From contig CAIXXM010000123.1 in the NCBI GenBank assembly GCA_903923395.1, positions 1-64,000 of the forward strand: a stretch of 64,000 nucleotides of DNA, in the 5' to 3' direction. Position numbers and translations under genes: made by a program. Shown here in pieces: positions 164-39,382 of this stretch. The stretch's first letter is position 1. Every line of letters begins with the position of its first letter. Under the pieces are notes generated by a model, which worked only from the letters and a program-made list of their open reading frames with translations, searched no databases and was not told the origin of the DNA. This stretch comes from an uncultured Acidobacteriia bacterium (GTDB lineage: Bacteria; Acidobacteriota; Terriglobia; Bryobacterales; Bryobacteraceae).

Positions 164-826
164 ATGGCAATCCGACTCGCACTGCTGGCGGAACAAGGCT
201 TATTCCGCGAAAGTTTGGCACGGCTGTTGGCCGCAGAGCCTGACTTCCATCTGTTGAGAGATGTTGCCTCAGGGCCCGAACTGCTCCAGGAGCTTCGCGG
301 TGAACAGGTAGATCTTGTTTTGCTTGACCTGGATGGAGATGATCAGTTCTACACGGCCTTCATGGCGGGTGCCCGTGCGGCAGGTTATACGGGTTACTTC
401 CTGGTGGTTGCCGGGCATGCGGATGCGGCTCTTGCCGCAGAGGCCCTGCGTGAGGGAGCTTCCGGGATCTTTCTCAAATCTGGATCTTCTGCGAATCTGC
501 TGCATGCGATACGCATGGTCGCTTCCGGCGAGGTTTGGGTGACAAAGGAACTGGTCCGGTCACTGGCGGAACGCGTTCCACGGCTGGGAGGGCACCGTGA
601 CCCGAGCCTGACCGCACGCGAACAGGCCATTTTGCGGGGCTTGATTGAGGGGATGACGAATAAGAAGATCGCCTCTTCAAACGGGATTTCCGAATCCGCG
701 GTGAAAGCCACCGTACGCCGGTTGTACGCCAAAACAGGAGTGCACCGCCGAAGCCGGCTGGTCCGGCTGGCCCTCGAAGGCTCACTGCCGCCAGCAGCGC
801 GCGAGGCTCACAGCAGATCGCGATAG
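164..826 (+). CDS. NarL/LuxR-type response regulator with degenerate receiver
   Basis: Receiver domain (about residues 3-118) followed by a LuxR-type helix-turn-helix (about 150-210, LTAREQAILRGLIEGMTNKK). The start at 164 is chosen over an upstream in-frame start at 128 because MAIRLALL is the normal first strand of a receiver. The phospho-acceptor Asp55 (DLVLLDLD) and Lys105 (GIFLK) are present. The first acidic-pocket residue is Ala9 (LLAEQ where the related protein at 37386-38015 has LLDDH), and the Thr switch position is Ala83. Sequence is clearly related to that protein throughout (FRESL, GASG.FLK, NKKIA/NKEIA). It probably binds DNA, but phosphorylation control may be lost. Its 3' end overlaps the convergent neighbour by 19 bp, and no kinase is adjacent. 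Confidence 0.88.
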   Translation: MAIRLALLAEQGLFRESLARLLAAEPDFHLLRDVASGPELLQELRGEQVDLVLLDLDGDDQFYTAFMAGARAAGYTGYFLVVAGHADAALAAEALREGASGIFLKSGSSANLLHAIRMVASGEVWVTKELVRSLAERVPRLGGHRDPSLTAREQAILRGLIEGMTNKKIASSNGISESAVKATVRRLYAKTGVHRRSRLVRLALEGSLPPAAREAHSRSR

Positions 827-1710
827 TCTTCGAGAGCAACACGAACGAGTTGCGCCCGCGTGCGCACTTCCGTCTTGGCAAACAGCTGTTGCAAGGTATT
901 CTTCACGGAGCTTTCGGAAATGTCCAGACGGACCGCGATCTCTTTGTTGGCCAAGCCTTGCACCAGATAGCGCAGGACTTCCGTCTCGCGTGCCGCGAGT
1001 TGTGGGCGGGCGTGGGCATCCACCATGCCCGGCGGTGCCGCCGCTTCCGCCACCTCGGTTTTGTCCGCAATGATGGCTGCAAGCTTGGGCACGGAACCTT
1101 CTTTATAGGTGGAAAACCAAACGTCAGCCAGGAAAGAATCGCCGTCACCGCGATGCGCCCGGCATTGCATGGAAGCACGGAACTGGGGGCCATCCTCCCA
1201 GCGAAGGGCGTGGTGAAGTTCCGGCAAGAACGCTGCCACAGGCTGGCCGACCAGTTCCCCGCCCCTGGGGGCAAGCAACTCGACCGCTGCGCGGTTGGCC
1301 AGTTCCACGAATCCGCGCTCATCAATGGTCACGATGGCGGCCGGACTCGTCTCCACCAGGACGCGCAAACGTTCCTGCGCTTCGAGCGTGCTGCGCCGGT
1401 TGCGGAGCATCTCCCCAAAGAATAGTCCGCAGCCGGCGAGTGCCAGAGTTTCAAAAGAGAGCCGGACGAGAGATTCATCGAGTTGACTGAAAAACGCGCT
1501 GAGCAACGCGCACCCCAAGCCCAGCAGGGCAATCACCCAGCGAGGCAGGAAACCGGCCATCAACATGATGGGAAACAGATAGAGAAAGCCAAGCGAAACG
1601 TAGGGTTTGGTGCGCCAGTCGATGATTGCGATTCCCGCAATAACCGAGCAACTCCAGGCAAGGACCCGGTTCCGGTTCCGTTCTTCCCACATCCAATCGA
1701 GTTGCACCAT
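808..1710 (-). CDS. Membrane-anchored PAS-LuxR one-component regulator
   Basis: Four predicted transmembrane helices lie in residues about 15-101 (VLAWSCSVIAGIAIIDW, LGFLYLFPIMLMAGF, WVIALLGLGCALLSAFF, TLALAGCGLFFGEML). A PAS domain follows (about 113-225, VLVETSPAAIVTIDERG), then a C-terminal LuxR helix-turn-helix (about 236-300, ARETEVLRYLVQGLANKEIA). There is no kinase or receiver domain. The membrane and PAS parts match the histidine kinase at 38012-39382 (GFLYLFP, then F.A.D.WFSTY) and the DNA-binding part matches the regulator at 37386-38015 (GLANKEIA.RL..SESSVK). It therefore looks like a transcription factor that senses through a membrane/PAS module without phosphotransfer. Whether it acts from the membrane or is released is unknown. 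Confidence 0.88.
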   Translation of the reverse strand: MVQLDWMWEERNRNRVLAWSCSVIAGIAIIDWRTKPYVSLGFLYLFPIMLMAGFLPRWVIALLGLGCALLSAFFSQLDESLVRLSFETLALAGCGLFFGEMLRNRRSTLEAQERLRVLVETSPAAIVTIDERGFVELANRAAVELLAPRGGELVGQPVAAFLPELHHALRWEDGPQFRASMQCRAHRGDGDSFLADVWFSTYKEGSVPKLAAIIADKTEVAEAAAPPGMVDAHARPQLAARETEVLRYLVQGLANKEIAVRLDISESSVKNTLQQLFAKTEVRTRAQLVRVALEDYRDLL

Positions 1711-35455: not shown

Positions 35456-37255
35456 TTAGACCGCGCACTCGCCGCGGCCCAGCTTCAGCGAGAACGCTTC
35501 TTCGTCGCCCCAGTCCTTGTACAGTTCCGGATCGATCTCGGCCGGCTTGGCCAGATCGGCCAACTCAGCGCGGAAGAATTCTACCTTGTACCGGTGCACA
35601 TACTCGCGGAAGCTCTCGTTCTCCAACTTGTTCGCGCGGTAATGTTCCAGCACACGCTTCGCTGCCGTTGGCGCGTTCTTCGCCGGCAGACTCTGCACCG
35701 CCAAACCATAGCGCATCACACCGTGGATATCGTAACCACCACCCAGCAGCATCTGGTAGAACGGAATCTCTTTGCCATCGATCTTCCGTGCATTGCCGTA
35801 GAAACCGATGTCCCCAATCCAGTGCTGTCCGCAGGAATTCGGGCAGCCGGAAATCTTCACATGCAGCTTGCGCAGAAGAGGGTCGTCATAACCCAGCACG
35901 GCTTCGCGAATCGCCGCGCCCAGATTCATGGACTTCGTCAGCGCCAAATTGCAGGAATAAGCGCCCGGGCAGGTCAACACGTCGGCCAGTTCATTGGCAC
36001 CGGCATCGGCCAGGCCAATCTGCAACAAAGCCGCATACACGCGGGGCAGATTCGCCAGCGGGATGAAGCCAAGCACGAAGTTCTGTTCCACTGTGAGACG
36101 CAGTGCGTCATCGCCGGCATCACGGGCGAGCGCCGCAAGCTGACGCATCTGATCCGTGGAAAGATTGCCCTGATTCAGGCGGACAGTCACCGAGGCATAC
36201 CCCGTGGTCTTCTGCTCTTCCACGTTGGTTTCAAGCCAGCGGTCGTACGCGGGGTCGCCTGATGCGGGGTGTCCCACAACGGGCAGCAACGCACCCTGCC
36301 CCAGCGCGCGGGGCTTCGAAGAGAATGCGCCGAAACCTTCCGGCACGATCTCCGGCGAAGGAATGCCGCCGTTCTCCAGAATGTCCGCGTATTCCTTTTC
36401 GATCTGTTCCTTCAACCAGTCAAAGCCGCGCTCACGCATCACGAACTTGAGGCGGGCCTTGTTGCGGTTGCTCCGGTTGCCGTGCTGATTGAAGACGCGC
36501 AACACCGCTTCCACGCGGTTCACCAAACGCTCTTCCGGCAGAAATTCATCCAGCACCATGGCTTCCACGGGCAGGGGGCCAAGGCCGCCGCCGACCACAA
36601 TATGGAACCCGCGCTTGCCGTCTTTGATCCGGGCTTTGAAACCGAGATCGTGAATGGCGCCGATGGTGCAATCTTTGTCCGTGCAGCCGTCGAACGCCAT
36701 CTTGAACTTGCGGGGCATGGAGTCCGTGAGGCTCTTGCGGAGGAACGCGTAAGCGACCTTCTGCGCGTAGGGGCGGACGTCGAAAACCTCATTGCGGGTC
36801 AGGCCAGCATAGGGGCAGGCCGTAATGTTGCGGACGGTGTTGAAGCAGGCCTCGCGGCTGGTCAGCCCGGCGTCCGCCAGCAGGTGCATGGCATCAGCCA
36901 CCTTGGCCAGCGGGACGAAGTGGAACTGGATATTTTGGCGGGTGGTGAGGTGTCCCTTCCCTGCCCCCTGGCCGGACGCGACCAAATCCCCCACCGCTGC
37001 CATGACTTCCAGCTGGTGGGAGGTCAGCATGCCGCCCGGGATCTTGGTGCGCAACATCTGCACGCCTTCCTGCCGCTGCCCGTAGACGCCAAAGCGCAGA
37101 CGGTAGGGGCGGAAGTCATCTTCCGTGATTTTGCCCTCGACCAGTTCCGCCGCGCGGGTCCGGAACGCTTCGATTTCGGTGCGGACAACTTTGTCGTGTT
37201 CGCGCTCAAAAGCTTCGATTTCAGAGGGGGAAAGTGCGGCTTCGGTCAGGCTCAA
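35456..37255 (-). CDS. Siroheme nitrite/sulfite reductase
   Basis: Two ferredoxin-like/siroheme repeats. The N-terminal half has GHLTTRQNIQFHFVPL, TACPYAGLTRNEVFDV and DGCTDKDCTIGAIHDLGF. The C-terminal half has the [4Fe-4S]-siroheme ligands TCPGAYSCNLALTKS and KISGCPNSCGQHWIGDIGF (C-x5-C ... C-x3-C). A TTG start at 37255 (MSLTEAALSPSEIEAFE, with CGGAG about 8 bases upstream) gives 599 residues, near the usual length; ATG 37360 is the alternative and lies 25 bp after the upstream regulator's stop. It should reduce sulfite to sulfide or nitrite to ammonium in the cytoplasm. It is the last gene after a lipoprotein, a kinase and a regulator on the same strand. Confidence 0.93.
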   Translation of the reverse strand: MSLTEAALSPSEIEAFEREHDKVVRTEIEAFRTRAAELVEGKITEDDFRPYRLRFGVYGQRQEGVQMLRTKIPGGMLTSHQLEVMAAVGDLVASGQGAGKGHLTTRQNIQFHFVPLAKVADAMHLLADAGLTSREACFNTVRNITACPYAGLTRNEVFDVRPYAQKVAYAFLRKSLTDSMPRKFKMAFDGCTDKDCTIGAIHDLGFKARIKDGKRGFHIVVGGGLGPLPVEAMVLDEFLPEERLVNRVEAVLRVFNQHGNRSNRNKARLKFVMRERGFDWLKEQIEKEYADILENGGIPSPEIVPEGFGAFSSKPRALGQGALLPVVGHPASGDPAYDRWLETNVEEQKTTGYASVTVRLNQGNLSTDQMRQLAALARDAGDDALRLTVEQNFVLGFIPLANLPRVYAALLQIGLADAGANELADVLTCPGAYSCNLALTKSMNLGAAIREAVLGYDDPLLRKLHVKISGCPNSCGQHWIGDIGFYGNARKIDGKEIPFYQMLLGGGYDIHGVMRYGLAVQSLPAKNAPTAAKRVLEHYRANKLENESFREYVHRYKVEFFRAELADLAKPAEIDPELYKDWGDEEAFSLKLGRGECAV

Positions 37256-37385
37256 AAGAAACTCCGTGTTCTCTATCGAGAATACCAGAGCGGATATTCT
37301 GCCTCGTCCGCCGCAAGGGGGCGGGAGCCGCTCTATCAATTCATCAACAGCAGGATACATGGAAGTCTTGGTTGACCGGCAGGCA

Positions 37386-38015
37386 CTACTCGTCCAGATG
37401 CCGCTCCAGCGCAATCCGCACCAACTGGCTTCTCGTCCGGACCCCGGTCTTATCAAACAACTGCTGCACCCCGGCCTTGACCGAACTCTCAGACACCTGC
37501 AGCCGGGCGGCGATTTCCTTGTTCGCCAGCCCCTCGAAGATCCCCTTCAACACGGCCTGTTCGCGCGGCGTCAAGGGCTGCACCGCAGGCTTGGCCGCAC
37601 CGCGTTTCGCATCTTCGAGCGAACGCACAGCGCGCGAATCAATCCACGTCCCGCCAGCCATGACCTGATGGATCGCTTCAATCAACTGTCCCGGCGGACT
37701 GTGCTTGAGAAACAGCCCTGATGCCCCCGTCTCCAGCGCGCGCAGTGCTTCCGTGTCTGACATGCCCGCGGTCACCAGCAGAACGCGCCCCGTGAAGCCT
37801 GCCGCCTGCGCCAAAGGGAAAAATTCCGTACCCTGCTGCTCGCCCAGATCATAATCCAGCAGGACAAGATCCACCGCGCGGTGCCGCAACAGGGAAACCG
37901 CTTCGAGAGGAGTCTGGCAGGTCGCAACCACCTGCATTTCGGGTTCCGCCTCCAGCAGACGGCTGAGGCTTTCCCGGAACAAACTGTGATCGTCGAGCAA
38001 AAGGATCCGGATCAT
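37386..38015 (-). CDS. NarL/LuxR-type response regulator
   Basis: Receiver at residues 1-115 with a complete phosphorylation site: acidic pair Asp8-Asp9 (LLLDDHSLF), phospho-acceptor Asp54 (VLLDYDLG), switch Thr82 (LLVTAG) and Lys104 (LFLK). LuxR helix-turn-helix at about 145-205 (TPREQAVLKGIFEGLANKEI). The start overlaps the stop of the kinase gene by 4 bp (ATGA), so the two are translationally coupled and are very likely cognate partners. The nearest downstream gene is the siroheme reductase, a plausible but untested target. Confidence 0.94.
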   Translation of the reverse strand: MIRILLLDDHSLFRESLSRLLEAEPEMQVVATCQTPLEAVSLLRHRAVDLVLLDYDLGEQQGTEFFPLAQAAGFTGRVLLVTAGMSDTEALRALETGASGLFLKHSPPGQLIEAIHQVMAGGTWIDSRAVRSLEDAKRGAAKPAVQPLTPREQAVLKGIFEGLANKEIAARLQVSESSVKAGVQQLFDKTGVRTRSQLVRIALERHLDE

Positions 38016-39382
38016 ACCGCCAATTCCACGATAAAACTCGCGCCGCTCCCGGAGGGTTCAAACCTGAGGTCGCCGCGGAAGCCACGCAGGAAAGCGCGGG
38101 ACAAATACAAACCAAGCCCCGTGGATTGCGCGCCGGATTGGAAGGGGCGGAACAGGCGCTCGGGTTCGCGCACTCCACTGCCGGTATCGGAAACCCGCAC
38201 GAGCACGCTGCCCTGTGCCACGGAGCCCGTGAAGGAGAGGACGCGCTCTCTGGAATCCCGCATGGCCCGCTGGCTGTTCTTCACCAAATTCAGAAACACC
38301 TGCAGCAGGCTGTGCGGGTCCGCCCAGACGTGGGGCAAATCCGGCGGCAGATCCCACTCGATGGAAATCCCGTCATCGTGCAGCGCCGGTTCAATAATGA
38401 TCCGCAGTTCCTGGAGCAAACTTTCCAGGTCAATCAACGCGGCCTGTCCGGCGGTATCCCGCAGGTCAATCGCGGCAATCTTTTCGAGTGCCACAATCAG
38501 CGTTCCCAGCGTTTCGAAATCCTTGTTGCCTGCCAGACGCCCGTCGCGGATCAGGTTCTGGTGCACCACGGCAATCGCCCCGCAAACATTGCGAATCTCA
38601 TGGGAAACGGCACCCACCAGAATCCGCGACCCCGTCATCAACTGCTGCAAACTGATCTCTTCGCGGTTGCGCAGATCTTCTGAGGAATCAACAACCATCG
38701 CCGCCAGACGGGGACCCGAATTCGTCTGATAAGTGGAGAACCAGATATCGGCCTGAAACACTTCGCCATCCGCCCGCAGCCCGCGGCATTGCATGGCCGT
38801 GCGAAAAACCTGTGAGCCCTCCCGCATGGCCGGCACATTGACCAGCGCCGGCAGATAATCCCGCACACTCTTCCCCGGCAACGATCCGGCAGGCAGCGCG
38901 AAAAGCCTGTGCGCCGCCTCATTCGCCAGAATCACCGTGCCATCCGGGCGCGATGTAAAAATCGCCGCCGGACTGCTCTCAATCAGAATCTTCAACTGCG
39001 CTTCCGCCTCGCGCCGCGCTTCCACTTCGTGCTCCACCTGGTCCATATGGATCAGCGCCAGCTTGCGGCTGCGAACCACCTCGAACACGAAAAGCCCCAT
39101 GCCAAAGAATGCGGATAGGATAAGGATGTCGCGCGGAATGCCGGTTTCCCAGCCCCATTCATAGCTGTCAAAGGCTTCCGTCAGGACCGCGCAGAGCGTG
39201 GCCATGATGGCGATCTGCCAGCGCTGCAGCGCACTGCCCGCCAGCACCATGGGGAATAAGTAGAGGAACCCGAGGGGAATGTTGCCCTTGATGTGCCAGT
39301 CGGCGAGCGCGATCAGCAGCGTCATCCCCATCGCGCGGAGAAAAACAGCCTGTCTCGAACCGCCCAGCAGCTCGGTATACAT
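38012..39382 (-). CDS. Membrane PAS sensor histidine kinase
   Basis: Four transmembrane helices in residues about 14-102 (MTLLIALADWHIKGN, LGFLYLFPMVLAGSAL, IAIMATLCAVLTEAF, ILSAFFGMGLFVFEVV), PAS domain about 130-245 (ILIESSPAAIFTSRPDG), HisKA with His in VGAVSHEIRNVCGAI, and HATPase motifs VFLNLVKNSQRA, DTGSGV and TGLGLYLSRAF. The membrane and PAS parts are paralogous to the one-component regulator at 808-1710. It is coupled to its regulator by a 4-bp overlap and follows a lipoprotein gene after 3 bp. The signal is unknown; PAS suggests a small ligand, redox state or heme. Confidence 0.94.
   Translation of the reverse strand: MYTELLGGSRQAVFLRAMGMTLLIALADWHIKGNIPLGFLYLFPMVLAGSALQRWQIAIMATLCAVLTEAFDSYEWGWETGIPRDILILSAFFGMGLFVFEVVRSRKLALIHMDQVEHEVEARREAEAQLKILIESSPAAIFTSRPDGTVILANEAAHRLFALPAGSLPGKSVRDYLPALVNVPAMREGSQVFRTAMQCRGLRADGEVFQADIWFSTYQTNSGPRLAAMVVDSSEDLRNREEISLQQLMTGSRILVGAVSHEIRNVCGAIAVVHQNLIRDGRLAGNKDFETLGTLIVALEKIAAIDLRDTAGQAALIDLESLLQELRIIIEPALHDDGISIEWDLPPDLPHVWADPHSLLQVFLNLVKNSQRAMRDSRERVLSFTGSVAQGSVLVRVSDTGSGVREPERLFRPFQSGAQSTGLGLYLSRAFLRGFRGDLRFEPSGSGASFIVELAV

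Follow-up and report, generated by a model that had tools for sequence, protein, structure and literature searches.

The 64,000-nucleotide stretch analysed here (the window), from an uncultured Acidobacteriia bacterium, encodes at positions 808-1710 of its minus strand a 300-residue protein that starts with ATG and combines four transmembrane (TM) helices, a PAS domain and a LuxR/NarL-type helix-turn-helix (HTH). Comparisons of sequences make it probable that this protein is a membrane one-component regulator that arose from a histidine kinase/response regulator pair of the kind that we call subfamily B, and that it directly controls the adjacent tolC-adaptor-RND efflux operon. They show homology of both of its halves, a restricted distribution, linkage to the efflux operon and a half-site shared with the pairs at a different spacing. 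We give about even chances to a wider proposal, namely that a phosphorelay was twice cut down to a one-component membrane regulator within one family of soil Acidobacteria, and that in the larger case, at a homologous efflux operon, the signalling helix became two heptads shorter while the half-sites moved from two helical turns to one turn apart.

Domain architecture of the one-component regulator

A Pfam domain search of the protein identified a PAS domain (1.7e-7) and a GerE/LuxR domain (3.1e-15) and found no kinase, HPt or receiver domain, in line with the original prediction, made from the letters of the window alone, that kinase and receiver are absent. An AlphaFold2 model built on a 20-sequence alignment (mean pLDDT 84, pTM 0.50) places N-terminal helices at residues 10-33, 41-52, 57-74 and 81-121, followed by the PAS domain (125-216), a disordered linker (221-234) and a four-helix HTH (240-295). 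On the minus strand these parts correspond to a four-helix membrane module with signalling helix (residues 1-121, positions 1347-1710, from the AlphaFold2 helices), the PAS domain and its end (residues 125-222, positions 1044-1338, from Pfam and AlphaFold2) and the LuxR/NarL HTH (residues 236-300, positions 811-1005, from Pfam). The top structural matches were VqmA and EL222. With a GerE domain and four predicted N-terminal TM helices in one chain and phosphotransfer domains absent, the protein would count as a transmembrane transcription regulator (TTR).

Searching its whole 6.15 Mb genome with the protein, together with pairwise comparisons, returned as best non-self matches the two members of one pair in the window: a histidine kinase (38012-39382, minus strand) for the membrane-PAS part (residues 20-219, matched at 38678-39334 with 43% identity, 41-43% overall, E 5e-36), and its partner, a NarL-type response regulator (37386-38015, minus strand), for the HTH (residues 236-298, matched at 37392-37580 with 62% identity, 62-64% overall, E 6e-16). 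The likeness to this kinase and regulator, on which the original prediction was founded, is on these comparisons real homology.

Within the PAS domain, an adjacent histidine pair, H166/H167, is conserved in 32/35 and 31/35 proteins, respectively, of the main clade of related fusions described below; these histidines do not rank with the three most frequent residues in the kinases, nor with the common residues of a divergent fusion, L059. C183 and C67 are conserved in the main fusions and in the kinases alike. Given the conservation of these residues, the protein may sense metal, heme or redox, which is plausible as a guess only.

Distribution and origin of the fusion proteins

Fusion proteins occur in about 35 of the 237 sampled genomes of the same GTDB family, the named relatives being mostly Bryobacterales/Bryobacteraceae metagenome-assembled genomes (MAGs); within this family, a membrane-held LuxR factor with an internal PAS is therefore not rare. 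In a set of 396 genomes from the phylum, the membrane-PAS matches that lie beyond this family are mostly to kinase-length frames (465-531 aa), most with a regulator beside them, and 87 of the 94 collected kinases have a NarL-type regulator directly downstream. Since pairs turn up in several families across the phylum and the fusion was seen in one family only, the direction is read as being from pair to fusion. The pair regulators have the receiver-HTH layout of the whole NarL family. A Sulfotelmatobacter MAG holds a further arrangement (L173:5614-6966), in which a response regulator gene is directly followed by the gene of a TM-PAS protein of 231 aa that stops at the PAS end, has neither kinase nor HTH, and groups with the fusions.

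Trees were built from the concatenated membrane-PAS and HTH parts (112 rows), from the membrane-PAS part alone (77 rows, unrooted) and from the HTH alone (94 rows and 70 columns, with a distant outgroup). On the membrane-PAS part, the main fusion clade joins the subfamily B pairs with support 99/97 (98-99% across the membrane-PAS and concatenated trees); these pairs come from L060, a member of the same family, and from Korobacteraceae, Acidiferrum and other Acidobacteriota. The divergent fusion L059 (8240-9310) is sister to the main clade (support 99/87; 36 rows including L059), and the window pair falls in subfamily A in the membrane-PAS and concatenated trees. The sensor part groups with kinases and the HTH with the adjacent regulators, by the membrane-PAS and concatenated trees and by the tail residues given below; the HTH tree taken by itself has poor resolution. 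Separate trees of the two parts, as suggested along with the original prediction, thus place the membrane-PAS part with subfamily B and not with the window kinase, and settle little for the HTH.

Three further fusions, L061 (8601-9593), L063 (8343-9443) and L064 (3682-4674), fall near subfamily A, apart from the main clade. A single origin of all fusions was recovered in 0 of 200 bootstraps and gave a p value in the approximately unbiased test (p-AU) of 0.076, then 0.035 with six more sequences, which makes it likely, if not proven, that the fusion arose twice within one bacterial family. The members of this second clade are not beside an efflux operon, and in both L061 and L063 the divergent neighbours are methyltransferase-like and TolB-like.

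Similarity between fusions and kinases runs to the end of the PAS domain (AAIIVDLSED / AAIIADVTEE), and similarity to the regulators restarts at the beginning of the HTH (LTxRExxVL). A C-terminal tail, ALExYRD(Q)L, is common to the main fusions and the subfamily B regulators, and the L061-type fusions carry GIFEG and AIERLGNEL, closer to the A-type. The stretch between TM4 and the PAS domain comprises 10 residues in the main fusions as against 24 in 66 of 73 kinases, the 14 missing residues amounting to two heptads; the 24-residue helix is kept in L059 and the L061 group. The fusion would have come about by loss of all the sequence between the PAS end of the kinase and the HTH of its regulator. 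In the pairs the kinase gene precedes the regulator gene, often overlapping it, so that a single in-frame deletion would suffice. A candidate kinase remnant in the long linker of L059 was rejected, its score lying below those of many shuffles.

Linkage to an efflux operon

Downstream of a fusion gene, tolC, adaptor and HME-RND genes typically lie on its own strand, and pair loci typically stand divergent from the same operon, with the RND, adaptor and TolC genes on one strand and the kinase and then the regulator gene on the other. Altogether, 35 of the 42 main-clade fusion loci adjoin this operon, some of them in the divergent position of the kinase. In the genome of the window, the contig breaks off at base 1 of the window, but bases 1-141 recur without a mismatch as the final 141 bases of contig C43, on which TolC, adaptor and CusA/CzcA RND genes lie, and this exact overlap places the efflux operon next to the gene of the one-component regulator. 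The gene order would then be RND-adaptor-TolC (all on the minus strand), an orphan response regulator (164-826, plus strand) and the one-component regulator (minus strand), as in L039 and L045. The pump itself belongs to the CusA/CzcA family (TIGR00914, 936 bits against a cut-off of 701).

A shared half-site with two spacings

Upstream of tolC, at pair and fusion loci alike, we detected a direct repeat of the half-site CRAAMGAT. Among 32 pair promoters, TGGCCRAAAGATAGG occurs upstream of tolC in 28 and AAAGATA in 27, against about 1 expected for the latter, and CGAAAGATAATCGAACGAC is found upstream of tolC in 26 of 29 fusion promoters. A search for an inverted-repeat operator gave weak signals only, the real signal being the direct repeat. 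The best lag between half-sites is 22 bp in subfamilies A, A2 and B taken separately (21-22 bp overall) and 11-12 bp in the fusions. When the better spacing was scored per promoter, the ratio of short to long was 20:0 in fusions versus 1:16 in pairs (Fisher 1.3e-9), a value that marks a clean split rather than a count of independent events, as the promoter sequences are related; these counts leave out 8 fusion and 15 pair promoters without a clear repeat, and one promoter was tied. The fusion promoters also gave weaker lags at 20 and 31-33, and so their half-site arrays may be larger.

In the window, the predicted operator, CAAACGATTCCCGAAAGCC, lies at 72-90 on the plus strand, between the orphan regulator and the TolC gene of the C43 operon, and consists of two CRAAMGA half-sites 11 bp apart; the fusion-type pattern itself matches at 72-88. 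The pair-type site, SYCRAAAGATAGS, has one occurrence in the same 6.15 Mb genome, L214 (G000:C96:84879), upstream of a second RND efflux operon on C96 that has no adjoining kinase. This operon is the likely target of the window pair (37386-39382), and the two sites would fit a division of labour in which that pair has kept control of the C96 operon while the C43 operon answers to the fusion. The promoter of L059 itself carries a pair-like site, its half-sites counted as 20 bp apart, and no efflux operon lies nearby; with its kinase-type helix and pair-like operator, L059 is a possible intermediate.

Taken mechanistically, the TM/PAS part would sense a membrane or periplasmic signal (metal, a redox change or a hydrophobic compound), and this signal would directly alter the seating of the HTH dimer on a couple of half-sites separated by one helical turn. 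Transcription of the efflux operon could in this way be altered from the membrane without phosphorylation.

Alternative origins and roles

The original prediction took the protein either for a direct fusion that bypasses phosphotransfer or for the ancestor from which the window pair split. The part that stands is a fusion of sensor and HTH without phosphotransfer parts, both derived from one kind of kinase/regulator pair; the part that does not is the source. Although both halves find their best match within their own genome in the window pair, this pair belongs to subfamily A and not to subfamily B, and forcing the main fusions and the window kinase into one clade was rejected (lnL -104, p-AU 0.0012), which leaves direct fusion of that very pair highly improbable. 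The opposite direction, in which the fusion came first and pairs arose by splitting and by capture of kinase and receiver domains, agrees with the HTH tree, in which the HTHs of the main fusions are basal to those of the regulators, and the unrooted membrane-PAS tree cannot alone set the root. We read this basal position, in 70 columns with a long outgroup branch, as an effect of the distant outgroup, while still counting it against derivation from a pair. An ancestral fusion sits poorly, however, with its confinement to one family, with the NarL-wide layout of the pair regulators, with the intermediate features of L059 and with the placement of the second fusion clade elsewhere, and we therefore regard it as quite unlikely.

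It is also unlikely, in our view, that the protein is a fused relic, or a regulator of something else, whose pump neighbourhood reflects hitch-hiking synteny. Seven main-clade loci have no efflux gene nearby, several of them at contig ends, and the second clade (L061, L063 and L064) likewise lies away from the pump operon. However, TM, PAS and HTH residues are strongly conserved over many genomes, the linkage is conserved, and the operator differs systematically from that of the pairs. Derivation from a subfamily B pair, with direct control of the adjacent operon, thus remains the probable explanation, and has these seven loci and the basal HTHs to its debit together with two other results. 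No kinase or receiver remnant was found in any fusion, so that a single deletion is indistinguishable from a fusion of separate copies, and the fusion-type operator, tried as a genome-wide regulon finder, returned 6 matches at 5 distinct places versus 4 for a control pattern, which makes it unspecific and unusable at that scale.

Relation to known regulators

One-component systems are reportedly, after Ulrich, Koonin and Zhulin in 2005, usually taken as the ancestors of two-component systems. Here, the reverse step would be traceable through living pairs, L059 as a possible intermediate, the fused descendants, an orphan regulator in decay and a matching change in the DNA site; if true, this natural conversion from two components to one, with co-evolution of the operator and opposite to the usual direction, would be resolved unusually well. 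It makes directly testable whether the sensor of a kinase is able to drive a DNA-binding domain when phosphorylation is bypassed, and how the operator spacing has to alter in that case. It also gives a metal-type efflux operon that is widespread in Acidobacteria a likely regulator.

The soluble regulators PteF, EL222 and VqmA likewise place a PAS-type sensor before a LuxR-type HTH but have no membrane module, whereas residues 1-121 of the protein at 808-1710 form a predicted one. The CadC/ToxR activators are likewise membrane-integrated one-component regulators, with a single TM helix, an OmpR-type winged HTH and a periplasmic sensor; the protein studied here matched GerE/LuxR and not Trans_reg_C.

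A census of TTRs, which likewise join TM helices and a DNA-binding domain in one protein, lists Acidobacteriae among the richer groups, and its authors raise a two-component origin as a possibility; the hybrid TTRs of that census retain a kinase or receiver domain (PMC10269533), whereas the present four TM helices, PAS domain and LuxR HTH come with neither. The closest precedent, as cited there, is Rsp of Neisseria gonorrhoeae, a PilS/PilR chimera that suggests a two-component origin and represses pilA (PMC10269533). By that description, Rsp likewise unites the membrane sensor of a kinase with the DNA-binding part of the cognate regulator, kinase and receiver being gone; the present case differs in its TM-PAS kinase/NarL-type pairs, family-wide clade, efflux operon and architecture-linked operator spacing. 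Membrane LuxR-type regulators of Coriobacteriia such as DadR have 10-12 TM helices (PMC9734109), as against four TM helices and a PAS domain here, and pseudo-receivers and orphan regulators have been reviewed (PMC12632262). The kind of protein is thus already known; the literature searched held no paper on this family in Acidobacteriota, nor the efflux-operon link or the operator change.

Neighbouring genes

The orphan NarL-type regulator at 164-826, overlooked in the original prediction and convergent with the one-component regulator, has a degenerate receiver in which the acid pair DD is replaced by AE. Together with its equivalents at the fusion loci L039, L040, L043, L045 and L046, it descends from subfamily A2 pair regulators (a clade with support 100 in the full-length tree). 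Most orphans show losses in the receiver, with the phospho-acceptor D changed to E in L039 and L052 and the lysine affected in L040 and L046; the L052 copy is damaged. The orphan seems to be what is left of an older pair that has lost its kinase gene. A conserved link of the one-component regulator to the upstream pbpC and alpha-2-macroglobulin genes was considered and set aside, being seen at no other fusion locus examined. The window pair adjoins a sulfite/nitrite reductase-like gene (window 35456-39382) and not its usual efflux operon.
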